Assembly: GCA_013043825.1 (NCBI GenBank)
Contig: JABDNM010000189.1
Coordinates: forward strand, 1-37,088
Source: Flavobacteriaceae bacterium
GTDB taxonomy: Bacteria; Bacteroidota; Bacteroidia; Flavobacteriales; Flavobacteriaceae
Direction of reading: 5' to 3'
Length of the DNA stretch: 37,088 nt
In this document: piece after piece, positions 6,927-34,549 of the stretch
How positions within the stretch are numbered: the stretch's first letter is position 1
How the letters are laid out: the number at the start of each line of letters is the position of its first letter
Notes under the pieces: model-generated
What the model was told of the DNA's origin: nothing
Seen by the model: the letters and a program-made list of their open reading frames with translations, nothing else
Database searches by the model: none
Position numbers and translations under genes: made by a program

Positions 6927-8363
6927 ATGAAAGTAAATTTACTTTTAACCACGCTCGTTTTTGCCTGTTCCGTGAGCTTTGCTCAGACCCCATGCGTCAA
7001 TGGTTTCGCCGACGGATATCCGTGCGAGGGTTTTGATCTTCAGTCGTTTATTCCATGGACCACATTCAGCACAGACAATGCGAATGATTCCTGGGGATGG
7101 ACCGATCCGCAAGACGGAAAAGAGTATGCTTTGGTTGGTCTTGAAAATGGAGTTGCATTCGTAGATATTTCCGATCCCGTAAACCCAGCTTATTTGGGAA
7201 AATTACCCACACATACCAATCCTAGTTTATGGAGGGATCTTAAAACATACAACAACTACGTATTTGTGGTTAGTGAGGCTTCTGGTCATGGCATGCAGGT
7301 GTTCGACCTAACACGCCTTCGTGATGTAACCAATCCTCCGGAAACCTTTACTGAAGACGCACATTATAATGGCTTCGGAAGTGCTCACAATATAGTGATC
7401 AATGAAAGCCAGGGGTATGCCTATGGTGTAGGGACGTCAACCTTCAACGGTGGACCTCATTTTGTGGATATCTCAGATCCCTTGAATCCAACAGCGGCCG
7501 GCGGCTATAATTCGGAAGGTTACAGCCATGATGGGCAAGTGGTTACTTACAGCGGACCTGATTCTGATTACACAGGAAGAGAAATTTACCTTGGTAGTAA
7601 TACCGATAAAGTCGTGATCGCCGATATTACCGACAAATCAAATCCTCAGACCATCTCAACCATTCAGTATTCCAACATAGCCTATACGCATCAGGGCTGG
7701 CTCACCGAAGACCAGGCGTTTTTTCTTCTTGGGGACGAGATCGATGAGTTGAATTTTGGGTTTAATACTCGCACCGTGGTTTTTGATGTAAGTGACCTGG
7801 ATAATCCAGCCTTCGACTTCGAATATTTTGGCCCTACTCCTGCCACAGATCATAATGGCTATGTTAAAGGAGATGAATTTTACCTGGCCAATTACAAAGC
7901 CGGACTTCGCGTAGTCGACATTTCCGATATTGGCAATGGTAATTTCACCGAAACGGGTTATTTCGACGTATTCCCAAACGGAGACACCGCTGGCTACGAT
8001 GGCGCTTGGAATGTGTATCCTTATTTTCCGAGTGGTAATATTTTGATCACCTCACTTACTTTCGGGGATCCCAATTATGTTGGTGGCATGTATATCGTAC
8101 GTTCATCATTATTGAATAATAATGATCTAGAAGCCGATAACGCCTTCAGAATTTATCCAAATCCTGCGACAGATCGTTTGAACATTGAGTCCGCGCAAGC
8201 TGCAGTAAACCATGTTATGATTGCAGATGTCACCGGGAAGGTCGTTTTCGAGAAATCGGATATTAATTCAAAAATCGAACAAATCAAGATTGAAAATTTT
8301 TCAGAAGGAATCTACTTCGTCAATATCAATAAATCGCTCACGAAAAAGATCATTAAAAGATAG
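6927..8363 (+). CDS. Choice-of-anchor B family (LVIVD-repeat) secreted protein with T9SS type A sorting domain, paralog 1
   Basis: Signal peptide MKVNLLLTTLVFACSVSFAQ; TPC..GYPCEGFDLQS; NDSWGWTDPQDGKEYALVGLENGVAFVDISDPVNPAYLGKLPTHT; tail FRIYPNPATDRLNIES...GIYFVNINKSLTKKIIKR. Track ORF starts upstream at 6885. Confidence 0.9.
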   Translation: MKVNLLLTTLVFACSVSFAQTPCVNGFADGYPCEGFDLQSFIPWTTFSTDNANDSWGWTDPQDGKEYALVGLENGVAFVDISDPVNPAYLGKLPTHTNPSLWRDLKTYNNYVFVVSEASGHGMQVFDLTRLRDVTNPPETFTEDAHYNGFGSAHNIVINESQGYAYGVGTSTFNGGPHFVDISDPLNPTAAGGYNSEGYSHDGQVVTYSGPDSDYTGREIYLGSNTDKVVIADITDKSNPQTISTIQYSNIAYTHQGWLTEDQAFFLLGDEIDELNFGFNTRTVVFDVSDLDNPAFDFEYFGPTPATDHNGYVKGDEFYLANYKAGLRVVDISDIGNGNFTETGYFDVFPNGDTAGYDGAWNVYPYFPSGNILITSLTFGDPNYVGGMYIVRSSLLNNNDLEADNAFRIYPNPATDRLNIESAQAAVNHVMIADVTGKVVFEKSDINSKIEQIKIENFSEGIYFVNINKSLTKKIIKR

Positions 8364-8396
8364 TAACCCAAATTCTACCAACTTAGAACCAACTTC

Positions 8397-10325
8397 ATGC
8401 AAAAACTAGTATTATTTTTATTGTCGGCCCTCGGGATAGTTCAACTTACCGCGGCCCAAACACCTTGTCTTGGTGGAACAGCCGCTGGCTATGCCTGTAA
8501 CGGTTATGACCTTCAGTCACACATTCCGTTGTCCACTTTCAACGCGGGAGGCGCGAACGATTCATGGGGATGGACCGATCCACAGGATGGAAAGGAATAC
8601 GCCCTGGTAGGCCTAGAAGGAGCAACCGCTTTTGTCGATATTTCCGACCCGGTAAACCCGGTATACCTTGGTAAATTGCCTACACATACCAATTTCTCGA
8701 CCTGGCGTGATCTAAAAGTGCACAACGACTATGTCTTTATTGTAAGTGAAGCCTCCGGACATGGGATGCAGATCTTCGATCTTACTCACCTTAGAAACGT
8801 TACAAACCCGCCGGTAACTTTTACAGAAGATGCCCATTATTCTGGCTTCAGCAGTGCTCACAATCTGGTGATAAACGAGGACACCGGATATGCCTATGCG
8901 GTAGGAACAAATACCTTTAGCGGAGGAACACATTTCGTAAATATACAGGATCCCTTGAACCCGGTCGCGGCTGGTGGATTTGGTGGAGACGGCTATGTCC
9001 ATGACGCCCAGGTAGTATCCTATGTAGGTCCGGATAGTGACTATGCGGGAAGTGAAATTTTGATCGCCAGTAGCGGATCTATGGAATGGGTTTCCATAGT
9101 GGACGTGACCAATAAGACAAGCCCTCAAAGTATCGCCACAATGAACTATACCAATTCCGGATACACCCATCAGGGATGGTTCACCGATGATCATAGGTAT
9201 TTTCTGCTGGGCGATGAATTCGACGAAGCCAACAACGGTTTCAATACCAGAACCATCGTATTCGATCTACTCGATCTTGACAATCCACAACATCATTTGG
9301 ATTTCTTCGGAACAACTCCGGCAACCGATCACAATGGGTATGTAGTGGGAAATAATTACTACCTCTCTAATTATTCGGCTGGACTTCGGGTAATCGACAT
9401 CACTGACATTGCCAGCGGCAATCTGGCTGAAACTGGTTTTTTCGACACCTATGGTTCGAACAACAATGCCAATTACGACGGTGTATGGAATGTTTATCCT
9501 TACTTCGGAAGTGGAAATATTATGATCAATGATCGCTCTGAAGGCTTTTTCATTGTGAAAGCATCTGCTCCTGATACTATTGACCCGGTAGCTGTTTGTC
9601 AGAACTTCACCGCCGAACTGGACGAGAACGGACAAGTGATCGTATCGGGTGATGACGTGGATGGAGGTTCTTCAGACAACAGTGGATTTTTTACAATTAC
9701 CTTGAGTCAGAATACCTTCGACTGCTCCCATCTTGGACCAAACACGGTAACCGTTACCGTAACTGATCCCGCTGGAAATACGGATACATGTACTTCTGTG
9801 ATCACAGTTGTAGATGTAACAGGCCCCGTGTTTGATTGCCCGGCAAATCAATCTGCTGAATACAACGAGGGCGATGAATTCTATACCTTGCCCGATTATG
9901 TTGCCTCAGGCGATGTGTCTGCAACAGATAATTGTACCGCTTCCCTGGTGATTTCTCAGGATCCAGTGGCAGGAACCCAACTCACCGAAGGAGTTTATCC
10001 CATTTCTTTTGAAGCCACCGATGATGAGGGAAATTCAGAAACCTGTACCTTCAATTTGAATGTGGTCGAAATACTGGGTGTGGATGACTTCACCCAAGCA
10101 CTAAATCTTGTTATCTTTCCAAACCCAAGTTATGGAACCATAACAATAACCTCCGACAGTCAAAACCTGAAATCCATATCGATCTCTGATATCTCCGGCA
10201 AACTAATTTTAGCCTTTTCCGAAGTAAACTCTAACAGTGAAACGCTTGATATTTCAGCTTTTTCCAAAGGAATTTACTTCGTCAATATCAACAATACGAT
10301 AACTAAAAAGATAATTAAACAATAA
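8397..10325 (+). CDS. Choice-of-anchor B family (LVIVD-repeat) secreted protein with HYR-like modules and T9SS type A sorting domain, paralog 2
   Basis: Signal peptide MQKLVLFLLSALGIVQLTAAQ; same propeller block as paralog 1; inserted DPVAVCQNFTAELDENG...GPVFDCPANQSAEYNEGDEFYTLPDY...ETCTFNLNVVE; tail VIFPNPSYGTITI...GIYFVNINNTITKKIIKQ. Confidence 0.9.
   Translation: MQKLVLFLLSALGIVQLTAAQTPCLGGTAAGYACNGYDLQSHIPLSTFNAGGANDSWGWTDPQDGKEYALVGLEGATAFVDISDPVNPVYLGKLPTHTNFSTWRDLKVHNDYVFIVSEASGHGMQIFDLTHLRNVTNPPVTFTEDAHYSGFSSAHNLVINEDTGYAYAVGTNTFSGGTHFVNIQDPLNPVAAGGFGGDGYVHDAQVVSYVGPDSDYAGSEILIASSGSMEWVSIVDVTNKTSPQSIATMNYTNSGYTHQGWFTDDHRYFLLGDEFDEANNGFNTRTIVFDLLDLDNPQHHLDFFGTTPATDHNGYVVGNNYYLSNYSAGLRVIDITDIASGNLAETGFFDTYGSNNNANYDGVWNVYPYFGSGNIMINDRSEGFFIVKASAPDTIDPVAVCQNFTAELDENGQVIVSGDDVDGGSSDNSGFFTITLSQNTFDCSHLGPNTVTVTVTDPAGNTDTCTSVITVVDVTGPVFDCPANQSAEYNEGDEFYTLPDYVASGDVSATDNCTASLVISQDPVAGTQLTEGVYPISFEATDDEGNSETCTFNLNVVEILGVDDFTQALNLVIFPNPSYGTITITSDSQNLKSISISDISGKLILAFSEVNSNSETLDISAFSKGIYFVNINNTITKKIIKQ
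8565..8593 (+). repeat. 29-nt exact repeat shared by paralogs 2, 3 and 4 (copy 1)
   Basis: TGGGGATGGACCGATCCACAGGATGGAAA, identical at 8565, 10507 and 12540; encodes the WGWTDPQDGK motif. Confidence 0.85.
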
Positions 10326-10344
10326 GCCCCAAATCAATTATATC

Positions 10345-12258
10345 ATGAAAAACTCAATCTTACTTTTTGCCCTAGCTGTGACCCCATTCGCCATAGCCCA
10401 AACGCCCTGTTCCGGTGGTATGGCCGGTTCGTTTCCTTGTGATGGTTATGACCTTCAATCAACAATTACGTTAGGACAAATGAGCGCTGGTGGTGGGAAT
10501 GACTCCTGGGGATGGACCGATCCACAGGATGGAAAGGAATATGCCCTTATTGGTTTGAATAACGGTACGGCATTTATCGACATATCAAATCCTACCAGCC
10601 CTGTCTATCTAGGTAAACTACCAACGCATACAACCAATAGTTCATGGCGGGATGTAAAGACTTATGCCAATCATGCGTTTATCGTGAGTGAGGCCGGTGG
10701 TCATGGAATGCAGGTATTCGATCTTACCCGATTGAGAAATGTGTCGAATCCACCAGTAACTTTTACAGAAGACGGTCATTTCAATGGTTTTGGAGATGCT
10801 CACAATATCGTGATCAACGAGGATAGCGGTTATGCTTTTGCTGTTGGAACCGATTTTTATAACGGTGGCCCCTTCTTTATTAACATTCAAGACCCAACCA
10901 ACCCCGTAGGTGAAGGGGGTTATAGCATCGCCGATTACAGCCACGATGCACAGGTTGTTACGTACAATGGTCCGGATAGTGACTATACTGGGAGAGAGAT
11001 CCTCATTGGATCCAATACCAACGAAGTAGTCATTGTCGACATCACCGATAAATTCAACCCTGTTGGAATATCGAGTATTTCTTATTCCAATGTTGGGTAC
11101 ACACACCAGGGATGGTTTACCGAAGATCAACGATACTTTATAATTGGAGACGAGGCCGACGAGCAAAATAATGGTTTTAATACGAGAACCATTGTCTTCG
11201 ATTTCCAGGACCTGGACAACCCGCAGAATCACTTTAGTCACTTCGGTGCCACGCCTGCTATCGACCACAATGGATATGTGAAGGGTGATAAATATTACCT
11301 CGCCAACTACAGAGCTGGATTACGCGTATTCGACCTGAGTAATATTGCCGGCGGAACGATTGTCGAAGAGGGTTATTTCGATACCTATCCAAGTAGTAAC
11401 TCGGCAAGTTTTAGCGGTGCGTGGAATGTATACCCGTTTTTCGCCAGTGGGAACATAGTGATAAGCGACATGAACAGAGGATTTGTATTGGTCAAGTCTT
11501 CTTTCGTAGACACAGAAGACCCGGTCGCCGTTTGTCAGAATATTACTGCCCAACTGGATGAAAATGGAATTGCCACCATAGAAGGTGCCGATGTAGACGG
11601 TGGTACAACTGATAACAGTGGTTTTGTTACCCTCACAGTCTCTCCAAATAGTTTCGATTGTTCAGACATTGGGGCGAACACCGTAACCTTAACAGCCACC
11701 GATCCTTCCGGGAATACAGATACTTGTACTGCAACTGTGACTATCGAAGATACGATGGGGCCGGTATTCGACTGTTACGAAAACGAAACCGTAGGCTACG
11801 ATGAAGGCCAGTCTTATTATACTTTACCGGATTACGTGAGTACAGGTTTGGTTGACGCCATCGATAACTGTTCGGCAAATCCCGCTATTTCACAGGATCC
11901 AATTGCTGGAACTCAACTAACGGAAGGAACCTATTCTATCACTTTCGAAAGTGTAGACGGTGAAGGTAATACGAGTGATTGCTCCTTTGAATTAACAGTG
12001 GTCGAAATATTGAGCATTCAGGATAATTTGAGCGCGGGACTTATTATTTATCCCAATCCCGTGGAGAATCGTCTCGAAGTGATCTCAAAACGTGTGGAGT
12101 TAACTTCCATTCAATTAGCAGATATCACGGGGAAAATTCTTTTGAATGAAAGTAATCTGTCAACCGAAAGACAAACTATAGATCTATCCTTCCTTGCAAA
12201 AGGAGTCTATTTTATTAATGTAAATGATCAGGTGACTCGAAAGGTCATAAAAAAATAG
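10345..12258 (+). CDS. Choice-of-anchor B family (LVIVD-repeat) secreted protein with HYR-like modules and T9SS type A sorting domain, paralog 3
   Basis: Signal peptide MKNSILLFALAVTPFAIAQ; same propeller block; DPVAVCQNITAQLDENG module as in paralog 2; tail LIIYPNPVENRLEVIS...GVYFINVNDQVTRKVIKK. Confidence 0.9.
   Translation: MKNSILLFALAVTPFAIAQTPCSGGMAGSFPCDGYDLQSTITLGQMSAGGGNDSWGWTDPQDGKEYALIGLNNGTAFIDISNPTSPVYLGKLPTHTTNSSWRDVKTYANHAFIVSEAGGHGMQVFDLTRLRNVSNPPVTFTEDGHFNGFGDAHNIVINEDSGYAFAVGTDFYNGGPFFINIQDPTNPVGEGGYSIADYSHDAQVVTYNGPDSDYTGREILIGSNTNEVVIVDITDKFNPVGISSISYSNVGYTHQGWFTEDQRYFIIGDEADEQNNGFNTRTIVFDFQDLDNPQNHFSHFGATPAIDHNGYVKGDKYYLANYRAGLRVFDLSNIAGGTIVEEGYFDTYPSSNSASFSGAWNVYPFFASGNIVISDMNRGFVLVKSSFVDTEDPVAVCQNITAQLDENGIATIEGADVDGGTTDNSGFVTLTVSPNSFDCSDIGANTVTLTATDPSGNTDTCTATVTIEDTMGPVFDCYENETVGYDEGQSYYTLPDYVSTGLVDAIDNCSANPAISQDPIAGTQLTEGTYSITFESVDGEGNTSDCSFELTVVEILSIQDNLSAGLIIYPNPVENRLEVISKRVELTSIQLADITGKILLNESNLSTERQTIDLSFLAKGVYFINVNDQVTRKVIKK
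10507..10535 (+). repeat. 29-nt exact repeat shared by paralogs 2, 3 and 4 (copy 2)
   Basis: TGGGGATGGACCGATCCACAGGATGGAAA. Confidence 0.85.
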
Positions 12259-12268
12259 ATCAAAAACG

Positions 12269-12295
12269 GAAAATGGCCAAGAATAGGTCATTTTC
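12269..12295 (+). terminator. Intercistronic hairpin between paralogs 3 and 4 (possible attenuator or mRNA-processing site)
   Basis: GAAAATGGCC-AAGAATA-GGTCATTTTC: 10-bp stem with one G.U pair, 7-nt loop; no long U tract after it, so termination is uncertain. Confidence 0.45.
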
Positions 12296-12377
12296 GGGAA
12301 ACTAAGCAGTGCTTTTTATCGTTATGTTTATTGACCAGCCGTTTTGTGATCCAACTAAGAACAATAAAACAATTTTC

Positions 12378-13784
12378 ATGAAAAAAATTACACTTATTAT
12401 CACATTGATGGCAAGCACTGTTGCATTTGCCCAGGTGCCATGTTCTGGCGGTAATGCCGCTGGATTTCCATGCGATGGATTCAATCTGCAATTCGATGTG
12501 CCACCCGGAGCTATGGGTGCCAGCGCAGCAAACGATTCCTGGGGATGGACCGATCCACAGGATGGAAAAGAATATGCCATCATTGGCTTGGATAATGGAA
12601 CTGCTTTTTTTGACATTTCCGATCCTGTGAACTCAGTATATCTTGGTAAACTGGACACGCATTCGTCAAGCACTATTTGGAGGGATGTAAAAGTATATGA
12701 TAATCATGCCTTCATCGTTAGTGAAGCCGGTGGTCATGGAATGCAAGTGTTCGACCTTACTCGCTTGAGAAACGTAAATAATCCGCCAGAAGTTTTTACC
12801 GAAGACGCCCATTATAATGCCTTTGGTGGGGCACATAATATTGCGATCAACGAGGACTCCGGGTTCGCCTACGTTATTGGGAGTAGTACCTTTAACGGAG
12901 GTCCGCACTTCATCGATATTTCTGATCCAACCAATCCGGTTGCTGCCGGAGGATATAGTTTGGATGGTTATTCACACGATGCACAGATCGTAACTTACAA
13001 CGGGCCCGATACCGATTATCAGGGGCGCGAAATTTTCTTCGGAAGTAATACAGATCGACTTGTGATCGTAGATGTTACCGATAAAAGTAATCCTCAACCT
13101 ATTTCGATTGCTACCTATCCTAATACAAGCTATACGCATCAGGGATGGCTTACGGAAGACCAGTCAATCTTTATTGCAGGCGATGAGATCGATGAATTGG
13201 ATATTGGCTTCAACACAAGGTCCATAATCTTTGATGTATCCGACCTGGATAATCCCGATTTCTCGTTTGAGTTCTTCGGAACCACTCCTGCTACCGATCA
13301 TAACGGTTACGTAAAAGGAGACTATTTTTACATGGCATCTTACAGTGGAGGTCTCCGGGTGCTGGATATTAGTGATATCGCGAATCAAAATGTTTCCGAA
13401 TTTGGTTATTTCGATACCATTCCGGGAAGCAATAGCCCTGGTTTTAACGGATCCTGGAATGTCTATCCATTTTTTGCCAGTGGGAACATAGTAATTAGTG
13501 GAGATGAAGGATTCTTCCTGGTTCAAAATCCAATACTTGGATTAGAGGACGTAGTTGCCGGCGATTTCGCCATCTATCCTAATCCAACAAAAAATATATT
13601 GACCGTTTCATCCAGTAAAGAAGCGATCAATGAAGTAGCTATTTATAATGTTTTGGGGCAGGTTGTTTTCAGTAAATCATTTGCCAACAATTTCTCCGAA
13701 ACTCTGAATATTTCGAATCTAAACTCCGGTATGTATCTGGTGAAAATTAACAATACTACCACTAAGAGGCTGATTGTTAATTAA
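12378..13784 (+). CDS. Choice-of-anchor B family (LVIVD-repeat) secreted protein with T9SS type A sorting domain, paralog 4
   Basis: Signal peptide MKKITLIITLMASTVAFAQ at 12378 (track ORF starts upstream at 12309); same propeller block; tail FAIYPNPTKNILTVSS...GMYLVKINNTTTKRLIVN; no HYR module. Confidence 0.9.
   Translation: MKKITLIITLMASTVAFAQVPCSGGNAAGFPCDGFNLQFDVPPGAMGASAANDSWGWTDPQDGKEYAIIGLDNGTAFFDISDPVNSVYLGKLDTHSSSTIWRDVKVYDNHAFIVSEAGGHGMQVFDLTRLRNVNNPPEVFTEDAHYNAFGGAHNIAINEDSGFAYVIGSSTFNGGPHFIDISDPTNPVAAGGYSLDGYSHDAQIVTYNGPDTDYQGREIFFGSNTDRLVIVDVTDKSNPQPISIATYPNTSYTHQGWLTEDQSIFIAGDEIDELDIGFNTRSIIFDVSDLDNPDFSFEFFGTTPATDHNGYVKGDYFYMASYSGGLRVLDISDIANQNVSEFGYFDTIPGSNSPGFNGSWNVYPFFASGNIVISGDEGFFLVQNPILGLEDVVAGDFAIYPNPTKNILTVSSSKEAINEVAIYNVLGQVVFSKSFANNFSETLNISNLNSGMYLVKINNTTTKRLIVN
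12540..12568 (+). repeat. 29-nt exact repeat shared by paralogs 2, 3 and 4 (copy 3)
   Basis: TGGGGATGGACCGATCCACAGGATGGAAA. Confidence 0.85.
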
Positions 13785-13790
13785 GTTTTT

Positions 13791-15197
13791 ATGCGTTTGA
13801 AAAAGAAAAGAATAATTCCAATTATTGTCATTGCATTCTCCTTAGGAGTGGCATTACTCTCATGCAGCAAGGACGACCCAGCAGTGAATCCAACCGATGA
13901 TGGTGGAGGCCCTATTGACGACGGTGGAGGTCCGGTAGGATTCGTAGGAGAGATCGACTGGCTAAAAGCTCTTGGTGGAAGTGGAATCGATGAAGGGGTC
14001 GATATCATTCGTACTTCAGACAACGCCTATATTGTAGTGGGAAACACAAGCAGCAATGATGGAGACATCATTGATAAAACTACTACCGATCAGGACTTTT
14101 GGGTCCTGAAGATCGCCGAAAACGGTGATATCATTTGGAACAAAACCTTTGGCGGATCGAATAATGACACGGCAAGGAGTATCACATCCACACCCGATGG
14201 TGGCTACCTGGTAGTTGGAGGCACACGTAGCAATGACGGAGATGTAACTTCAGGTAATGCCGGTTTCATCGACTTTTGGATTCTGAAACTGGATGCTAGT
14301 GGTAATAAAGTCTGGGATAAAACCTATGGATTTAGCGGGGAAGATCGTGCCAACGACGTGATCCAAACCAAAGATGGAGGTTTTCTCGTCACCGGATTCT
14401 TCGATGTTACCGCCAGCGGTGGCCAGGGGAATGATGGAAGAGAATATGGAAATCGCAATCATGCAGGGGGAGAATTTTGGGCGATCAAAATTAATCCAAA
14501 CGGTGAATATACCTGGAGGCGCTTCTTTGGCGGCTTCAACGACGACCGCAGTTACCAGGCACTTGAATTGAGTAGCGGTGGGTTCCTGCTTTTAGGAACT
14601 TCAGAAAGCCCCGATGGAGACGTAACCGATAATAAAGGCCAGTATGATTTCTGGGTAGTGCGCATAAATGATCTTGGGAACCTGCTATGGGCGAGGTCAT
14701 ACGGAGGAGCCGAGATCGATACAGGCTATTCCGGGCTTATTGCGCCAGATGGAAATGTGCTGTTTGTTGGAGATTCGCGAAGTGAGGATCAGGACGTTAC
14801 AGACCACATTGGCAACGCCGATCTATGGGTTGTGAAGTTCGCTCTAAATGGAAATCTTATTTGGAGCAAATCCTTGGGTGGCAGCCAGTTTGAATCTGCT
14901 CGCAGTATTCAATCTATGAACGACGGTAATTATTTACTCGCCGGTAGTACGAGAAGTTCAGATGGCGACGTTTCTTCAAACAAGGGACAAAACGATGCCT
15001 GGGTGGTGTTTATGGACGGAAGTGGAGAGCTCGTCTTCGAAAAGACCATTGGTGGTACAAGTTTCGACTTTGCCGAACATGCAATCACGGGTAATTTGCC
15101 CGATACCGTACTTATGGTTGGTAGCACCGAGAGTGGTGACATTGATATTCCGGGTAACAACGGCCTGAAAGATCTGCTGCTAGTTAAATTAAAATAA
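13791..15197 (+). CDS. Lipoprotein with seven ~55-aa repeats, predicted seven-bladed beta-propeller
   Basis: Lipobox LLSC followed by SKDDP. Repeat unit approx. W.K..GGS..D.A.SI..T.DGGYLVVG.T.S.DGDV....G..DFWVLK....G; I count seven units between WLKALGG and the C-terminus. Confidence 0.85.
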   Translation: MRLKKKRIIPIIVIAFSLGVALLSCSKDDPAVNPTDDGGGPIDDGGGPVGFVGEIDWLKALGGSGIDEGVDIIRTSDNAYIVVGNTSSNDGDIIDKTTTDQDFWVLKIAENGDIIWNKTFGGSNNDTARSITSTPDGGYLVVGGTRSNDGDVTSGNAGFIDFWILKLDASGNKVWDKTYGFSGEDRANDVIQTKDGGFLVTGFFDVTASGGQGNDGREYGNRNHAGGEFWAIKINPNGEYTWRRFFGGFNDDRSYQALELSSGGFLLLGTSESPDGDVTDNKGQYDFWVVRINDLGNLLWARSYGGAEIDTGYSGLIAPDGNVLFVGDSRSEDQDVTDHIGNADLWVVKFALNGNLIWSKSLGGSQFESARSIQSMNDGNYLLAGSTRSSDGDVSSNKGQNDAWVVFMDGSGELVFEKTIGGTSFDFAEHAITGNLPDTVLMVGSTESGDIDIPGNNGLKDLLLVKLK

Positions 15198-15213
15198 ATC
15201 TTAAAATAAAATA

Positions 15214-15993
15214 ATGAAGAAGATTGTTCTGCTTATTGCACTTACACTTGCAGTCACAGCATGTAAAAAAGATGATAACGGAGGAAATGTGATCAACGAA
15301 GTAACTGTGGATCTTATATTTAGCCACGATTGGGACGGTAGCGCGATCACCAATGCCGATTTCGACCAGATTCAGTATACCAATGCACATGGGGAGGAAC
15401 TAAGTATTTCTAAACTGGTTTATCTCATCTCCGATGTAACTTTTACCAATACCGCCGGTGATAAATTCGATGCAGGTGACTTTAACCTCATCAATGTTCG
15501 AAATAATTCAAACTTAACTTTTACCCCTGGAATCGAGATCCCGGAAGGAGATTATACCGTTACATTCACATTCGGTTTCGATGATGAAGATAATATCGAT
15601 CAGGCATATCCTGAATTGAACTCTGCAGACGGAGGTTGGAACGTACCGGCGCCCTTGGGTGGTGGCTACCACTACATGCGCCTGGAAGGGAAGTACATCG
15701 ATTCAAATTCAGATGAAGTTGGATATCAATACCATACCATACGTGCTAATGATATGTCTACGAATCCCGTTACCCTTCAGGATACCTCTTTTGAAGTGAA
15801 CCTGGGACAGGTTACTATAGGAAGCAATACTACTATTGAAGTTAAAATGAATGTAGCCGAATGGTTCAAGAACCCCAACCTTTGGGATTTGAATGTACTA
15901 TTTTCTACATTAATGCCTAATTTCGATGCGCAGATTATGATGAGTGAAAATGGTATGACGGTATTCAGTCGTGGAGCCGTGACCCAACAATAA
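15214..15993 (+). CDS. MbnP-family-like lipoprotein (putative copper-binding)
   Basis: Lipobox VTAC followed by KKDDN; VDLIFSHDWDGSAI...YTNAHGEELSISKLVYLISDVTF and GGWNVPAPLGGGYHYMRLEGKY resemble the MbnP-like domain; directly upstream of a diheme peroxidase-like gene, as in MbnP/MbnH pairs. Confidence 0.75.
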   Translation: MKKIVLLIALTLAVTACKKDDNGGNVINEVTVDLIFSHDWDGSAITNADFDQIQYTNAHGEELSISKLVYLISDVTFTNTAGDKFDAGDFNLINVRNNSNLTFTPGIEIPEGDYTVTFTFGFDDEDNIDQAYPELNSADGGWNVPAPLGGGYHYMRLEGKYIDSNSDEVGYQYHTIRANDMSTNPVTLQDTSFEVNLGQVTIGSNTTIEVKMNVAEWFKNPNLWDLNVLFSTLMPNFDAQIMMSENGMTVFSRGAVTQQ

Positions 15994-15997
15994 ATAA

Positions 15998-17068
15998 ATG
16001 AAAAGTATAAAAACATATTTGATTCTTGTTTTTGTTGCCGGTCTATGTTATTCCTGCGTGACCGATAATGACGACAATGGATATGTTGCCACTCCTTTCA
16101 CCCTGGAAGTACCCCAGGTATTCGCCGAACGAATTCTCCCTCCTGTTATTCCGGAAGACAACCCTTTAACAGTAGAAGGAATCGCCCTTGGAAAGAAGTT
16201 GTTCTTCGATCCAAGTTTATCTGCAGATGGCACCCAGGCTTGTGCAGATTGCCACCGACCTGAAAATGCGTTCTCAGATGCCCGTCAATTCAGCATTGGC
16301 ATTGACGGTTCTGTTGGAACACGAAATTCGATGCCGCTCTTTAACATGGCCTGGAATTATAATGAAGAATTTTTTTGGGACGGCAGAGCGCAGTCCTTGG
16401 AAGAACAGATCTTTGAGCCGGTAACCAATCCTATCGAAATGAAAAACACCTGGCCCAATGTAGAAAATACCTTGCGCGCCAGCGATACCTATCCTGCACT
16501 ATTCGAACAAGCATTCGGGACCACCACCATCGATTCAGTGCGAGTTTCCAGGGCGATCGCTCAATTCCTGCGTACCCTGGTCTCTGCCAATTCGAAATTC
16601 GATCGATTCCTACTTGGGCAGGAAGAATTAACTCCTTCCGAAGAAAACGGATTGGCCGTATTTCTCGATGAAAGCAGGGGAGATTGTTTCCATTGTCATG
16701 GCTTACCGGCCAATCCGCTTTGGACAGATAATATTTTTCATAACAACGGACTGGACGAGACCTTTTCCGATCGTGGCAGAGGTGGGTTTACCGGAGATCC
16801 AAGGGAATTTGGTTGGTTCAAGTCAGGATCACTCCGGAATCTGGCCTATACGGCACCCTACATGCATGATGGAAGATTTACAACGCTGGATGAAGTGATC
16901 GATCATTACAGTGAAGGATTGGTTTTTTCAGAAACCATCGATCCATTGATGAAAAAAGTAGCTGAAGGCGGAGTACAGCTCTCAGATCAGGATAAAGCCG
17001 ATCTCAAAGCCTTTTTGCTTTCACTTTCAGATCCAAGCTTTATTAACAACCCTAATTTTCAGCAGTAA
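15998..17068 (+). CDS. Diheme cytochrome c peroxidase/MauG superfamily protein (MbnH-like)
   Basis: Two CxxCH heme sites: CADCH (16241-16255) and CFHCH (16685-16699); GKKLFFDPSLSADGTQACADCHRPENAFSD; TAPYMHDGRFTTLDEVIDHYSEG. Starts 4 nt after the MbnP-like stop. Confidence 0.9.
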   Translation: MKSIKTYLILVFVAGLCYSCVTDNDDNGYVATPFTLEVPQVFAERILPPVIPEDNPLTVEGIALGKKLFFDPSLSADGTQACADCHRPENAFSDARQFSIGIDGSVGTRNSMPLFNMAWNYNEEFFWDGRAQSLEEQIFEPVTNPIEMKNTWPNVENTLRASDTYPALFEQAFGTTTIDSVRVSRAIAQFLRTLVSANSKFDRFLLGQEELTPSEENGLAVFLDESRGDCFHCHGLPANPLWTDNIFHNNGLDETFSDRGRGGFTGDPREFGWFKSGSLRNLAYTAPYMHDGRFTTLDEVIDHYSEGLVFSETIDPLMKKVAEGGVQLSDQDKADLKAFLLSLSDPSFINNPNFQQ

Positions 17069-24100: not shown

Positions 24101-24610
24101 ATGAAAGAAGAAATAGTAAATAGAGTCGCCAATAGTGCGCTGGTAACCTTCGACCTCGAGTCGTTCTATCCCGAAGGTCCTCGAATGGTTCTCGATATTT
24201 CTCAATGGCTGGAAGATGGTGTTGTCCTTCGGGAGAAACAATTCCGACAAGAACTGAAAAATTTTGACTGGACTCCTTACAATGACGCCTATGTGGCTAT
24301 TCAGTGTTCAACCAATGCCATAATTCCCGGTTGGGCCTATTTGCTGGTTTCCATTTATTTGAATGAGGTTGCAAAGTTTAATGTGCAGGGGTCCATGGAG
24401 AATCTGGAATCCATGTTGTTTTGCGAGATGCTCAACCAAATGGATATTTCAGAATTCGAAAATAAACCTGTCGTTATCAAAGGATGTGCCCACAAACCCA
24501 TTCCCGAAAACGCTTACCTGCTTGCGGCAAACAAGTTACAACCCGTAGCTAAAAGTCTCATGTATGGAGAAGCATGCTCCTCGGTACCTTTATATAAAAA
24601 GCCAAAGTAA
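24101..24610 (+). CDS. DUF2480 family protein
   Basis: MKEEIVNRVANSALVTFDLESFYPEGPRMVLDISQWLEDGVVLREKQFRQELKNFDWTPYNDAYVAIQCSTNAIIPGWAYLLV; recognised Bacteroidota family usually near suf genes. Confidence 0.8.
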   Translation: MKEEIVNRVANSALVTFDLESFYPEGPRMVLDISQWLEDGVVLREKQFRQELKNFDWTPYNDAYVAIQCSTNAIIPGWAYLLVSIYLNEVAKFNVQGSMENLESMLFCEMLNQMDISEFENKPVVIKGCAHKPIPENAYLLAANKLQPVAKSLMYGEACSSVPLYKKPK

Positions 24611-28023: not shown

Positions 28024-30066
28024 ATGATTCCATTTCCTTCTTTCTGTCGCCCGCACAGATCCCGAAATACGTCCGTTCTATTTTCTCTTTTTTCTTTTTT
28101 TATAGCGATGTTTTTCAGTATCAATGCGCAGGCCCAGGGACCCGGTTCACTGTTTGTGGATGCAGGTCCCGATCTAGAATTTGATTGCGGTTCGGCCCCT
28201 GAATGTTTCGATATCACAGCCACATTCTTGGAAACTTTTGAAACCAATAGTTCGAATTATTCGGTAAACTCCATAGCTTATAATCCGCCTTTCCCATTTG
28301 ATGGCCTGGCGAATAGTTTGAACCCCGACATTGACGATGCCTGGTCCATCGTTGAGACCTTGCCCTTCGATTTCTGTTTCTTTCAGAATATTGAAACGGA
28401 ATTTCAGGTGGGCTCGAATGGAGTGATTCGATTTGATGTAGATCCAGGAGATACCTCCAATGGTTGGAGTTTTTCAGAAGATCTCCCAAATAACTCGAAC
28501 CCTACCCTGGGTGAAGCCAACGTATTTACACCAGGACATGATATAGATCCTTCCCAATCTGTTTCGGAAGAAATAGGTTATGAAGTATTGGGTGAGTTCC
28601 CAAATAGGGTGTTAGTAGTATCCTATTTTGAAGTACCAATGTTCTCGGGTGCATGTAACCCGTTGCTGGCAACTCAAATGGTGGTATTCTACGAATTCTC
28701 CAATGTGATCGAGATCTATATGCAGGACAAACCTTCCTGTCCAAGCTGGAACAGCGGTAATGCCACCCTGGGTATTCAGAACAATGATGGGGACATCGCT
28801 TTCGTTCCTCCGGGAAGAAACACCTCCGATTCTCCCTGGACAGCCAACGACGAAGCCTGGCAGATCGCTCCGGCAGGAAATCCAACGTACGATTTTGCAT
28901 GGCTGGATGCCGGTGGAAATGTAATTGGTACTACCGCTACTTTGGAAGTTTGCCCGGTAGATGATATTACGACTTACACGGCCCGAGTAACCTATACCAA
29001 CTGTAATGGCGACGAAGTGGTTTTGACCGATGACCTGGTGGTCACCCTCACCAATACCTATACTGTGGATATAGGCGAGAGTCGCGAACTATGCGACGAA
29101 AAGAATTTAGAGCTTACGGCCCAGTTGAACGGTGCCGATCCGGCCGATGCTACCTTTCTCTGGAACACAGGTGAAACTACTCAAACCATTATAGTGTCTA
29201 CTACAGGCGATTATAGTGTGACCGTGGATGTCGACGGCTGTATTGAAATGGCTTCGGCTACATTGGTCTTCAATGAAAGCCCGGATTTCGATCTTGGCCC
29301 GGACATCGCCACTTGCTTTGACGAAATCATCATGCTGGATGCAACTCCTTCAAATTACGATCCAGCCGAAGTTACTTATGTCTGGTCACTCGATGGAGAT
29401 GTATTGCCTTCAGAAACAACAAATACCCTGGTTGTCACAGAAATTGGAACCTATAGCGTAACGGTTACCTTCGAGAACTGTTCCGCCACCGATTCGGTAA
29501 ACGTAGATCCAAGAGATGATCTCGAAGTAAGCCTGGGAGACGATTTTAAGTCATGCGTTCAGGAGCCAAAGGTACTCGTAGCCGAAACTTCAGAAACCGG
29601 AGTTACTTATCAATGGTTCCTCAATGGAGATCTCATTGAAGGAGAAGATCAGGCAACTCTTAATTTCAGTATAGATGCAGATGCAACGGGTATTCAAATC
29701 TATAGTGTGGTGATCACAAAAGGCGATTGTACGGGAGAAGATTCGGTGGATGTGGAATTGTATGATGTTGGAAATTGCGTGGTTTCCCAGGGGCTATCTC
29801 CTAATGGAGACGGATTTAACGATTCTATGGACCTGGAGTTCCTTTCCGATCGAGCTGGGGGTATTTCGCAATTCCGAATTTATAATCGACATGGGATCGA
29901 AGTATTCACTGCCGTCAATTATGTGAATGAGTGGTTCGGCCAGGACGAGAACGGCAATGAGCTACCTACAGGTACCTATTTCTATGTGATCGATCTCATG
30001 GAAGCAGATCCTGTTTATGGAATGCAGGCGACAGGTTGGGTATATCTTAACAAGGACGCTAATTAA
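28024..30066 (+). CDS. Large secreted protein with gliding-motility-associated C-terminal domain (T9SS type B)
   Basis: N-terminal hydrophobic signal; Ig/PKD-like repeats (YTWSLDGDVL.., GTYSVTVTFENCSATDSV); C-terminus GLSPNGDGFNDSMDLEFL...FRIYNRHGIEVF...WFGQDENGNELPTGTYFYVIDL...GWVYLNKD. Confidence 0.9.
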   Translation: MIPFPSFCRPHRSRNTSVLFSLFSFFIAMFFSINAQAQGPGSLFVDAGPDLEFDCGSAPECFDITATFLETFETNSSNYSVNSIAYNPPFPFDGLANSLNPDIDDAWSIVETLPFDFCFFQNIETEFQVGSNGVIRFDVDPGDTSNGWSFSEDLPNNSNPTLGEANVFTPGHDIDPSQSVSEEIGYEVLGEFPNRVLVVSYFEVPMFSGACNPLLATQMVVFYEFSNVIEIYMQDKPSCPSWNSGNATLGIQNNDGDIAFVPPGRNTSDSPWTANDEAWQIAPAGNPTYDFAWLDAGGNVIGTTATLEVCPVDDITTYTARVTYTNCNGDEVVLTDDLVVTLTNTYTVDIGESRELCDEKNLELTAQLNGADPADATFLWNTGETTQTIIVSTTGDYSVTVDVDGCIEMASATLVFNESPDFDLGPDIATCFDEIIMLDATPSNYDPAEVTYVWSLDGDVLPSETTNTLVVTEIGTYSVTVTFENCSATDSVNVDPRDDLEVSLGDDFKSCVQEPKVLVAETSETGVTYQWFLNGDLIEGEDQATLNFSIDADATGIQIYSVVITKGDCTGEDSVDVELYDVGNCVVSQGLSPNGDGFNDSMDLEFLSDRAGGISQFRIYNRHGIEVFTAVNYVNEWFGQDENGNELPTGTYFYVIDLMEADPVYGMQATGWVYLNKDAN

Positions 30067-30180
30067 TATCGGAAATAAGTGAAACTTAGTTGTGCTTTAC
30101 TTCCGGGTTAGCTCTAGTCGTGCAACAAAAGATTCGGGCTTCAATAATAAAACTGAACATTAAATTAACAACCAACGATA

Positions 30181-31098
30181 ATGAAAAAACTATCGCTATT
30201 AGTACTCTCCTTGATCTGCCTGCTTTGCACCAATTTTGCAGAGGCACAGCAAGACCCGCAGTACACTCAATATATGTATAACATGAATGTGGTAAACCCG
30301 GCCTATGCAGGATTGAAGGAAACTCTCTCGCTTACCGGACTCTACAGAAAGCAATGGTCCGGACTCGACGGTGCTCCCGAGACCATCACATTCTCAGGTC
30401 ACAGCCCGATAGCAGATAAAATAGGACTTGGACTTTCTGCCATCAAGGACGAATTGGGCCCGGTGAAGGAAACCAATGTTTTTGTTGACTTTTCTTATAC
30501 ATTACAGCTGTCGGATGAATTGAGACTAGCGCTGGGATTGAAAGCGGGTGCAACTTTTCATGATGTTGGTTTGGTGGACCTTGAACTACAGGATCCTAAC
30601 GACCCCTTCTTTTCACAGGATATCAGTAATACTTATCCGAATGTGGGTGCCGGTGCTTTCTTTTACGGTGATAACTTTTATGTTGGCCTTTCAGTTCCAA
30701 ATCTGTTGAATTCTGTTCACCTGGATGCTAACGGACTAAAAATTGGAAGCGAGACCAACCATTATTTTGCAACCGCCGGATATGTCTTTCAGGTTTCCGA
30801 AAACGTAAAGTTGAAACCTTCAGTCATGGCCAAGTCGGCCTTCGATGCACCTTTGTCGGTTGATGGGAATTTAAATGCTCTTTTCTACGAAAAATTCGAG
30901 ATTGGTGCTTCCTATCGATTGGATGATTCATTCAGTGGGCTTGTTGGATTTCAGGCTACGCCCAATATACGCATAGGATATGCCTATGATCATGTGATAA
31001 GCGATCTGGACGCTGTAGCCAATGCGTCGCACGAAGTTATTCTCACCTTCGATCTGGTATTCAAGAAAAAATCTCTTCGTTCGCCTCGTTACTTCTAA
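30181..31098 (+). CDS. PorP/SprF family type IX secretion system membrane protein
   Basis: QQDPQYTQYMYNMNVVNPAYAGLKETLSLTGLYRKQWSGLDGAPETITFSGHSPI is the PorP/SprF N-terminal signature. Confidence 0.95.
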   Translation: MKKLSLLVLSLICLLCTNFAEAQQDPQYTQYMYNMNVVNPAYAGLKETLSLTGLYRKQWSGLDGAPETITFSGHSPIADKIGLGLSAIKDELGPVKETNVFVDFSYTLQLSDELRLALGLKAGATFHDVGLVDLELQDPNDPFFSQDISNTYPNVGAGAFFYGDNFYVGLSVPNLLNSVHLDANGLKIGSETNHYFATAGYVFQVSENVKLKPSVMAKSAFDAPLSVDGNLNALFYEKFEIGASYRLDDSFSGLVGFQATPNIRIGYAYDHVISDLDAVANASHEVILTFDLVFKKKSLRSPRYF

Positions 31099-31119
31099 TC
31101 GATAAATATGTTCATTCCC

Positions 31120-33006
31120 ATGAAAAATATAACAACACTTCTTCTCATATTCTCTGTCGCATTCGCTACGGCTCAAAATAAGGATACCAAAAAGGCCGAT
31201 CAACTATATGATCGTTTGGCCTATACCGATGCTGCTCAAGCCTATCAAAAATTACTGAAACAAGGCAAAGGTAGTCGCTACGTCTTTGAACGTTTGGCGA
31301 ATAGCTATTACTTCATCAACGATACCAAGAAGGCCGAAACATATTACAAAAGAGTGGTGAAGGGTAGAAAAGTAAAACCTGAAACCGTGTACAGCTATGC
31401 TCAATCATTAAAGGCCAATGGAAAATTCAGTGATTATAATACCTGGATGAAGACATTCGCCAGTATGAATCCAGACGATTCACGAGCGAAAGACTTTATG
31501 AAAAACCCCAATTATGTTCCGCAGATCATGGAAGATTTTGCACGCTATGAGGCTCTGAATTTGGAAGAACTCAATTCGGAATATTCCGAATTTGGCGGGA
31601 TCATTAATGGCAAGGATTTCTATTTTTCTTCCGCCAGAAATACGGCCCGAAAAAAATATCACTGGGACGAACAACCTTTCCTGGATGTATATAAGGCAAG
31701 CCTGGTAGGTGATGCCATCAAAAATGCACAATTGTTGGAGGGAGATGTGAACACTAAATTTCACGAAGGGAATGTGGCCATTACCCCAGATGGAAAACGA
31801 ATGTACTTCGATCGTAATGATTATTTAAACGGAAAGTTCGAAAAGAGTGAAGAAGGCATCAACCAAATCAATATTTATTATACCGAATGGGTCGATGGTA
31901 AATGGAAAGGTGTTTTCTCTCTTCCATTCAATAGCAGCGAATACTCCTCGGGCCATCCGGCTCTGAGCACCAATGGCAATACACTCTACTTCGTGAGTGA
32001 TATGCCCGGAGGTAAAGGTAAGTCGGACATATATAAAGTGTCCATCAATGCTAATGGAGGCTTTGGGACACCTCAGCGACTTGGAGACAACATCAACACC
32101 GAAGGAAAAGAAGTGTTCCCATACATCGATGGTTCCGGAAATCTATATTTTTCCAGCGACGGTCATCAGGGATTGGGAGGTCTTGATGGTTTCTATGCAG
32201 AAGCCAAAGGTGATGGATTCGGAGATCCTGTAAACATGGGTAAGGGAGCCAATAGCGAAAATGACGATTTTGCCTTTATCTACGATCCTAGCACCCGACA
32301 AGGATTCATGTCTTCCAATCGCAATGGAGGAAAAGGCAAAGATGATATTTACCGCTTGAGAGGAGTGGATCCTCCTTGTGAGGTGGATATGGATATCAAT
32401 GTGGTAAATGAATATACCGGAGAACCTATTTTTGGTGCGCGATTAGATCTCTATGACGCTATGGAAAATCGCTTAAGTACTAAGTCTACAGGAGAAGATG
32501 GTTCAGGAAACTTGCTGGCTGAATGCGAAAAGGAACATGTTGTTCAAGCCTTTATGCGTGGCTTCGAAAGCAATGCTATAACAGTGGAGGCAAGCCCCAA
32601 TGGAAAGCTTTCCAAGACCATTGAACTACGACCAATTGAAGCCATCATTGTGGACGATAAGGTGGTTTTGAATCCTATATTATTTGATTACAATAAACAC
32701 AATATAAAGCCTCAGGCGGCTTTCGAATTGGACAAGCTGATAGAGATCATGAAGAAGTATCCAAATATGAAGATCAATGTGGAAAGCCATACCGATACGC
32801 AAGGGCAGGCAGATTACAACCGTAAACTTTCTGAACGACGTGCACAATCGACCGTTCAGTATGTAATATCTAAAGGGATAGAATCTTCCAGAATTAGCGG
32901 TAAAGGTTTTGGAGAAGACCGTCCAGCCGTTCAATGTGGCAGGAATTGCAGTAAGGCAGAACATCAAAAGAACCGTCGTTCCGAATTTATTATTGTTGAG
33001 CGCTAA
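31120..33006 (+). CDS. OmpA family protein with TPR and PD40 (WD40-like) repeats
   Basis: Signal MKNITTLLLIFSVAFATAQ; TPR-like N-terminus; LYFVSDMPGGKGKSDIY and GFMSSNRNGGKGKDDIYRL PD40 repeats; OmpA C-terminus NVESHTDTQGQADYNRKLSERRAQSTVQYVISKGI...GKGFGEDRP. Confidence 0.93.
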   Translation: MKNITTLLLIFSVAFATAQNKDTKKADQLYDRLAYTDAAQAYQKLLKQGKGSRYVFERLANSYYFINDTKKAETYYKRVVKGRKVKPETVYSYAQSLKANGKFSDYNTWMKTFASMNPDDSRAKDFMKNPNYVPQIMEDFARYEALNLEELNSEYSEFGGIINGKDFYFSSARNTARKKYHWDEQPFLDVYKASLVGDAIKNAQLLEGDVNTKFHEGNVAITPDGKRMYFDRNDYLNGKFEKSEEGINQINIYYTEWVDGKWKGVFSLPFNSSEYSSGHPALSTNGNTLYFVSDMPGGKGKSDIYKVSINANGGFGTPQRLGDNINTEGKEVFPYIDGSGNLYFSSDGHQGLGGLDGFYAEAKGDGFGDPVNMGKGANSENDDFAFIYDPSTRQGFMSSNRNGGKGKDDIYRLRGVDPPCEVDMDINVVNEYTGEPIFGARLDLYDAMENRLSTKSTGEDGSGNLLAECEKEHVVQAFMRGFESNAITVEASPNGKLSKTIELRPIEAIIVDDKVVLNPILFDYNKHNIKPQAAFELDKLIEIMKKYPNMKINVESHTDTQGQADYNRKLSERRAQSTVQYVISKGIESSRISGKGFGEDRPAVQCGRNCSKAEHQKNRRSEFIIVER

Positions 33007-33090: not shown

Positions 33091-34521
33091 TTATTTGGAA
33101 CGAAGCTCTATCTCATCCAGTTCGTAGGTTCCGTCAAAATCTGCATCTCCACTTCCAACATACTTCCAGGCAATATATCCTGTCCCATCAATACATGATA
33201 GATCAACCGTTCCGGAATTGAACCAGTCTACGAAGTTATCATCGTCCAGAACAATATAAGCTGCAGACAGTATTTCCCATGTAGCAGTGGCTATAGAAGC
33301 TGGATCACCATCCCAATCTGCAGAGAACAAAACTTCAAGTGTACTGCCGTCTGAGAAACTGTTGGATGTTTTGAATTTTAGGGTTTCTCCCTCCTGTGCA
33401 TTGAAATCTACTTGAGGGGTGATCAGCCAGCCAATGGAATTATCATCACCACTCATAAAAGATCCCATACGGGCAGATATCCCCAGAGAAACACTTCCTG
33501 TATCACTGAAGAACGCCTCCCAGGTTTCGGAACCTGCCTCGATATAATTTGTCCAGCCATTCCCCGTGATGGGCTGCCCTTCTGTTTGTGACTCGAAGAA
33601 ATCACTGAAGATGACATTTGGTCCACTGGTGTCTGCTATTCCGCAATCAACCTCGGTTGGGTCACATCGATCTGTACTTTCAAACACAATTGTCGAGGGA
33701 TCGTTCACCACTACATTGAACTCTTCGCCAAAGAAGTTATAGGTTAGGAGCCCATTAAGCATCCCACGGCCCTCTGGCAACAAAACGGCCTTGAAATCGG
33801 CGAAGGTACTGGTGCTAAAGACAGTTGAAATACCTTCGGAACAACTTTCCAGTATTCGTTCTCCATCGAACTCATCATCGGGCTCGGCAGCAAAGGTTTT
33901 ACGATCCTCTCCCAAAGCTTCTTCCCGGTTAAACTGTACGTCATTCATCTGAATGTATAAATTGGTTTTCTCTGAACTGAATTCTGAAATTTGCATCGGC
34001 AAAGGAACGATCTCGGCCACCTCAATATCGCGTACCACAAATTTTGTCAATTGCGATTCTGCTATTTTTTCTACATCATTATTGCTTCCAATCCCTAAGC
34101 TCAAAACCCCACTGTCAAACCCTACGGTAAGGCCAGCTAGCTTAACATAGATTTTACGTCCAAATTCATAGGAAATAAACAAGGGACTAACGTCAATTAG
34201 CACTTTGACCCCGGATGTTGGGTTTGAGGGGCTGTCCTGGAGGATTAACTCCTCGAAAAAATTGCCCGCCCTGTCATCAGAGATCACATAACCTGCGAGG
34301 TATTGATCGGTCTCTGAAAAGGACAAAACCGGATTCTCATTTACCGTTTGTTCCTGGATGAGCAGGTCTCTAAGGCCGCCGATGGTAATCTCGGTTCCTG
34401 TCGGGTTTACGGTTTCTTCAGTGCGATCAGGTGTACTGAAATCGTCCATCCTGATGCAAGATCCCATCACCAGGATCGCATACAACAGCAATACAAGTTT
34501 ATAGTTAATTGAGTTTTTCAT
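33091..34521 (-). CDS. DUF5689 domain-containing lipoprotein
   Basis: MKNSINYKLVLLLYAILVMGSCIRMDDFSTPDRTEETVNPTGTEITIGGLRDLLIQ...VISDDRAGNFFEELILQDSPSNPTSGVKVLIDVSPLFISYEFGRKIYVKLAGLTVG; C-terminal choice-of-anchor-J-like GNGWTNYIEAGSETWEAFFSDTG. The track's 560-aa ORF carries an out-of-family N-terminal extension; start placed at the signal peptide. Confidence 0.88.
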   Translation of the reverse strand: MKNSINYKLVLLLYAILVMGSCIRMDDFSTPDRTEETVNPTGTEITIGGLRDLLIQEQTVNENPVLSFSETDQYLAGYVISDDRAGNFFEELILQDSPSNPTSGVKVLIDVSPLFISYEFGRKIYVKLAGLTVGFDSGVLSLGIGSNNDVEKIAESQLTKFVVRDIEVAEIVPLPMQISEFSSEKTNLYIQMNDVQFNREEALGEDRKTFAAEPDDEFDGERILESCSEGISTVFSTSTFADFKAVLLPEGRGMLNGLLTYNFFGEEFNVVVNDPSTIVFESTDRCDPTEVDCGIADTSGPNVIFSDFFESQTEGQPITGNGWTNYIEAGSETWEAFFSDTGSVSLGISARMGSFMSGDDNSIGWLITPQVDFNAQEGETLKFKTSNSFSDGSTLEVLFSADWDGDPASIATATWEILSAAYIVLDDDNFVDWFNSGTVDLSCIDGTGYIAWKYVGSGDADFDGTYELDEIELRSK

Positions 34522-34549
34522 TTCACTTTGTTTGTTTTTTCTGAAGTTC

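Follow-up and report, generated by a model that had tools for sequence, protein, structure and literature searches.

This locus raises the question of what a run of secreted propeller proteins does beside a lipoprotein and a diheme enzyme of the MbnP and MbnH types. It lies in a 37,088-nucleotide stretch of DNA (hereafter the window) from a Flavobacteriaceae bacterium (GCA_013043825.1, contig JABDNM010000189.1). Seven closely spaced genes occupied positions 6927 to 17068 of the + strand: four encode TIGR04312 "choice-of-anchor B" (LVIVD) proteins, shortened here to ChB, followed by an SBBP lipoprotein, an MbnP and an MbnH/MauG-like protein. ChB copy 1 (6927..8363, +; TIGR04312 545 bits, PF18962 E 1.7e-15) is a secreted propeller with a T9SS type A tail; copy 2 (8397..10325, +; TIGR04312 518 bits, PF02494, PF18962) carries an HYR domain besides propeller and T9SS tail; copy 3 (10345..12258, +; TIGR04312 556 bits, PF02494, PF18962) carries two; and copy 4 (about 12378..13784, +; TIGR04312 528 bits) consists of propeller and T9SS tail. 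The SBBP-type propeller lipoprotein (13791..15197, +), the MbnP lipoprotein of a divergent cassette clade (15214..15993, +; PF20243 E 2.7e-28) and the MbnH/MauG-like diheme c-type enzyme (15998..17068, +; PF03150 (CCP_MauG) E 5.8e-57, lipobox-like Cys20) complete the set. The intergenic gaps were, in gene order, 33, 19, about 119, 6, 16 and 4 nt; the gap of about 119 nt before copy 4 shrinks if the GTG at 12309 is the start codon. The gene set is flanked by thiL (- strand) on one side and by sufA/sufB (+ strand) on the other.

The preliminary description of this DNA had named seven same-strand genes, comprising four paralogous secreted LVIVD proteins, a propeller lipoprotein, an MbnP-like lipoprotein and an MbnH-like diheme protein, and this gene content was borne out. 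The four ChBs scored 518-556 bits against TIGR04312 (curated cut-off 100), each had a signal-like segment at the N-terminus, all four matched PF18962 and TIGR04183 (T9SS type A sorting domain) above cut-off, and their pairwise identity was 60-68%. The fifth gene product had no Pfam match; it matched the CylK propeller (E 1e-24), with the NF047494/LipL53 family model below cut-off, and its lipobox ended in a conserved Cys25. The ChB and SBBP propellers belong to two different families. Elsewhere in the window, a DUF2480 protein (24101-24610) adjoins the suf genes. An OmpA/PorE-like gene (31108-33006) is found downstream of a CHU_C-tailed PKD protein (28024-30066), a 305-aa gene separating the two, and the interval 28024-33006 looks like a T9SS-associated adhesin cluster. 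A lipoprotein at 33091-34773 (-) matched both the choice-of-anchor J and the M949_1556-type models, the latter below cut-off.

The conserved residues of ChB point to a metal site. Five His were invariant in all 126 close ChB domains, drawn from tandem and single loci, and no His was lost in any copy. Among 26 divergent ChBs (identity down to about 30%), H153, H200, H254 and H308 (copy 4 numbering) and Glu270 were invariant (26/26), and position 103, within W-R-[D/E], was Asp or Glu in every one. Several Trp were also invariant in ChB. The AlphaFold2 model of the copy 4 propeller (pLDDT 91.6) has seven blades. According to its strand assignment, the inner strands of blades 2-6 begin with, or directly next to, D103, H153, H200, H254 and H308, so that these residues should face the channel mouth. 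Many ChBs in other genomes had no T9SS tail and several had a lipobox instead, indicating that the propeller reaches the envelope via different anchors. A fifth full ChB gene of the same genome (L015:6054-7469), situated off the cassette amid housekeeping genes, had the same conserved His set.

Sb-PTE, the phosphotriesterase (haloalkylphosphorus hydrolase) of Sphingobium sp. TCM1, is a propeller enzyme whose metal centre is binuclear. It was the top PDB match of the copy 4 model in Foldseek (5hrm, E 4.7e-13, TM 0.69 by query length), followed by ordinary propellers at E 2e-11 and weaker. Only Sb-PTE (5hrm, 5ioj) was matched when a profile of the 26 divergent ChBs was searched against the PDB (E 6e-7), and profile-profile comparison with the single Sb-PTE sequence gave a match that was local only (prob 87, E 3.7e-6). 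The metal ligands of Sb-PTE, which we take to be E201, H258, H317, H389, E407 and H475 (PDB 5hrm, 5ioj), were of these residue types at exactly those positions in the deposited sequence. The series acid-H-H-H-E-H occurred with the same types and in the same order in ChB and Sb-PTE, and the third His and the Glu were spaced by 16 residues in ChB versus 18 in Sb-PTE. Residue by residue in copy 4 (all codons on the + strand), His153 (12834..12836) aligned with His258 in hmmsearch and in all three MAFFT modes; Glu270 (13185..13187) met Glu407 exactly in two of the three alignments; and His200 (12975..12977) and His254 (13137..13139) fell within one residue of their counterparts His317 and His389, again in two of three. 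His308 (13299..13301) was assigned to His475 by order and blade, the alignment being off by eight residues there, and Asp103 (12684..12686) was assigned to Glu201 by blade position and not by alignment.

Taken from sequence and model comparison, the homology of ChB to Sb-PTE is well supported, the conserved ChB residues likely form a metal site, and this site is probably binuclear. Hydrolase activity is plausible. The His-rich propeller centre could otherwise hold one metal only, in a structural or redox-active role. Rather than passive scaffolds, the ChB proteins are probably metalloenzymes of the cell surface. The propellers had earlier been proposed as scaffolds, substrates or metal-binding parts of one pathway; with their invariant His and Glu they do look metal-binding, while the scaffold and substrate roles found no backing.

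A search of gene neighbourhoods in other genomes, which the preliminary description had proposed as a check, was run and recovered a recurring association. Across 301 same-family genomes, MbnP occurred in 141, ChB in 166 and both in 102 (odds ratio 3.9). Among the best matches listed, 100 MbnPs scored below 130 bits and 64 of them came from genomes with a listed ChB match; in 63 of these 64, a ChB lay no more than 15 kb away; it was always located upstream, in the same orientation, at a median distance of 1.5 kb, or about one SBBP gene. The high-scoring MbnP type, among the matches listed, adjoined MbnH and rarely ChB. Seven MbnP loci from the group not near ChB were inspected; two held the complete cassette and five had MbnP-MbnH without ChB. 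In a phylum sample of 249 genomes, ChB-MbnP adjacency was seen only inside the same family.

We further compared 80 loci in named genomes, found by search with the diheme protein and including Ulvibacter, Algibacter, Hyunsoonleella, Aequorivita, Tenacibaculum and Winogradskyella. On contigs of sufficient length, the order was thiL, one to five ChB genes, SBBP, MbnP, MbnH, sufA and sufB; the exceptions were one locus with MbnP undetected and two with suf more than 2 kb away. In marine flavobacteria the set almost always has these two housekeeping loci as its neighbours. Of the 64 loci where thiL was visible, 43 had one ChB copy, 9 had two, 9 had three and 3 had four. Median gaps across loci were 55, 11, 7.5 and 6 nt (56-79 gene pairs), an operon-like spacing that would suit co-transcription. 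Median end branches were 0.27 for ChB, 0.25 for SBBP and 0.025 for SufB, showing that the propellers diverged about ten times faster while the order was still kept. The motif TAnnTTTG was present in 38 of 62 upstream regions versus 10.9 in shuffles, which suggests that the cassette has its own promoter, and some of these occurrences may be due to chance in AT-rich DNA; upstream of the window cassette no clear match to the motif was found. A terminator between MbnH and sufA was also considered, and the hairpins (8/64 versus 3 in shuffles) were unconvincing.

Two further contigs of the same assembly (C52 and C210) carried ChB-SBBP-MbnP and MbnP-MbnH fragments, again followed by sufA-sufB. A second cassette in the same genome was considered and rejected, because the repeated sufA-sufB downstream makes these fragments look like a co-binned relative and not a duplicate. 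This suggests that a related species was co-binned in the assembly. The locus on these contigs (L013, L014) was clearly divergent from the window copy, and contamination of the assembly is listed as 4.27%.

Loci without MbnP separated the parts of the cassette. When 23 ChB loci were inspected in MbnP-less genomes, 21 kept ChB and SBBP side by side without MbnP-MbnH, and both thiL and sufA were in view as flanks at 19 of the 21. On the SufB tree, five changes of state were needed to explain where MbnP-MbnH is present or absent, and well-supported branches forced at least three. The retention of ChB-SBBP without the pair and the repeated changes on this tree indicate a core of ChB-SBBP to which MbnP-MbnH is added. 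The SBBPs of all 21 loci without the pair had a His triad (H160, H184 and H186, window numbering; carriers L113, L115 and most of L117-L136), and the H184/H186 pair was present in none of the 73 SBBPs from loci with MbnP-MbnH. The triad may be a substitute metal site, an attractive reading, but the triad SBBPs form one clade, so it may reflect a single event.

MbnH oxidises a Trp in MbnP, enabling copper binding. The cassette MbnP scored 99.6 bits against PF20243 (gathering score 27); none of the NCBIfam models matched it, and PDB sequence searches with the single sequence or a profile gave no meaningful match. Its AlphaFold2 model (pLDDT 92.1) nevertheless had a genuine MbnP fold, and its six best Foldseek matches were all six chains of 7l6g, the M. 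trichosporium MbnP (E 6.8e-7). Judged by motifs drawn from our own Bacteroidota MbnP sample and not from a curated family definition, the first Trp of W-x-W (Trp142) was usually kept and the second was replaced by Val, and the C-terminal DHxHN present in the other Bacteroidota MbnPs sampled was absent. His174 was common to other MbnPs; an invariant extra His153 and conserved Trp217 and Trp224 were specific to the cassette clade. The diheme protein had the haem motifs CADCH and CFHCH. Its nearest solved structure was MbnH 6e1c (171 bits; next best 133), and it scored 242 bits against TIGR04039 (MbnH), below the cut-off of 363. Bacterial diheme peroxidases have an axial Met where MauG-type enzymes have Tyr; Tyr304 of the cassette enzyme aligned with a Tyr in MbnH 6e1c and with a Met in the peroxidase 3o5c. 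The cassette MbnP lacks the canonical motifs. CorA and MopE use two His and an oxidised Trp for their copper (PMC3912023), and by this analogy a copper site in the cassette MbnP is possible.

The preliminary description had placed the propellers in one pathway with the copper-linked, Trp-oxidising MbnP-MbnH pair. In a copper-handling pathway of this kind, MbnH would turn an MbnP Trp into kynurenine, MbnP would bind copper, and the propellers would bind, store or pass it. The MbnP and MbnH folds with their haem ligands fit such a pathway, as do His174, His153, Trp217 and Trp224 of the cassette MbnP. It also has precedents: CorA of methanotrophs is a surface copper protein with kynurenine in its copper site, co-transcribed with the diheme peroxidase-like CorB (PMC3912023), and a kynurenine copper site with a co-transcribed diheme protein is likewise known for MopE (PMC3423442). 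Neither MopE nor CorA has marked sequence similarity to MbnP (PMC3621798). However, one pathway is hard to square with the 21 of 23 inspected loci that keep ChB-SBBP without the pair, and the cassette MbnP has neither the second Trp nor the DHxHN motif. The propellers themselves argue against copper handling, their conserved site resembling a His/Glu hydrolase centre of the binuclear phosphotriesterase type and not a Cys/Met copper site. We therefore consider the copper pathway unlikely. An alternative in which MbnH matures the propellers, oxidising Trp or Tyr to a cofactor so that ChB or SBBP would act as a redox enzyme at the surface, is less probable still. For SBP56 methanethiol oxidase such a cofactor has been proposed; this copper enzyme, whose metal is held by His, shows operon-like linkage to a MauG homologue in the mtoX-SCO1/senC-mauG cluster (PMC5739008). 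ChB for its part has several invariant Trp. But the conserved ChB Trp were equally kept in genomes without MbnP-MbnH, and the SBBP-adjacent ChBs had neither a Trp nor a Tyr confined to MbnH-containing loci, which also goes against the earlier suggestion that the propellers are MbnH substrates. The one SBBP site tied to loci with MbnH, Tyr80, was Tyr or Phe elsewhere.

The propellers might also be generic surface or adhesion proteins beside an unrelated MbnP-MbnH pair, with a gene order that is merely inherited synteny between thiL and suf. The housekeeping flanks were equally conserved, so that synteny with thiL and sufAB could reflect vertical inheritance and not function, and surface proteins often have HYR domains and T9SS tails. 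This reading is improbable in our judgement, as the order was kept although ChB and SBBP diverged so much faster than SufB, the spacing was operon-like, and metal-type residues were conserved in every tandem copy, unlike in simple adhesins.

The reading we prefer, with moderate confidence, is a conserved flavobacterial surface operon of ChB binuclear metallo-propellers with an SBBP partner and an optional MbnP-MbnH module. Its core would be at least one ChB propeller and the SBBP propeller lipoprotein at the cell surface, the ChBs presumably anchored through T9SS here and as lipidated proteins in other genomes. At the mouth of the central channel, an acid, four His and a Glu from consecutive blades would form a binuclear centre homologous to that of Sb-PTE. 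Its most likely chemistry would be hydrolysis of an extracellular ester, of phosphoester or lactone type, by metal-activated water. The SBBP lipoprotein would probably serve as an outer-membrane partner or docking platform. Where present, the diheme enzyme would oxidise an MbnP Trp to give a metal site, and the pair may supply or guard metal for the propellers. Only tentatively do we extend this to the wider claim that the ChB/LVIVD family are surface Sb-PTE-related binuclear metallohydrolases, with a previously undescribed dedicated flavobacterial operon in which MbnP-MbnH builds or supplies a metal site.

ChB was present in 166 of the 301 sampled genomes of the same family, over half, and in 94 of 249 genomes across the phylum; no function assigned to these proteins was found. 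The likely metal centre, conserved across the family, and a structural relative that can be named make ChB testable as an enzyme family; if ChBs cleave extracellular phosphoesters, they would matter for how abundant marine bacteria recycle phosphorus. For MbnP-MbnH, the locus is a new setting outside methanotrophs, and the natural presence or absence of the pair at one syntenic site is a ready experiment on its role. The preliminary description had recognised no described function for this combination. Among the open-access full texts searched, none contained 'choice-of-anchor B' and none joined LVIVD with MbnP. All parts are known families; no earlier description is apparent for the operon, for its optional MbnP-MbnH module or for a connection between ChB and Sb-PTE.

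Among known systems, the cassette pair is like MbnP-MbnH (TIGR04052/TIGR04039; 7l6g, 6e1c) in fold, in the order of MbnP then MbnH and in the MauG-type Tyr; unlike the known pair, it is embedded with ChB and SBBP. Likewise, no propeller partners are reported for CorA/CorB or MopE/SACCP, unlike the window cassette. The MtoX/SBP56 cluster is similar and gives the preferred reading a precedent, in that a metalloenzyme with His coordination, there SBP56 and here presumably ChB, is encoded with a MauG homologue (PMC5739008). However, SBP56 is a copper enzyme of another family with a different His pattern, the cluster has the SCO1 chaperone instead of MbnP, and no evidence of homology between ChB and MtoX/SBP56 was found in this analysis. 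Sb-PTE shares with ChB the seven-blade propeller and itself has LVIVD-like repeats (sub-threshold PF08309). It differs in its longer loops, with an identity of 16% in the fold match, whereas ChB is predicted to sit on the cell surface, held through T9SS or a lipid, and to have partners in an operon.
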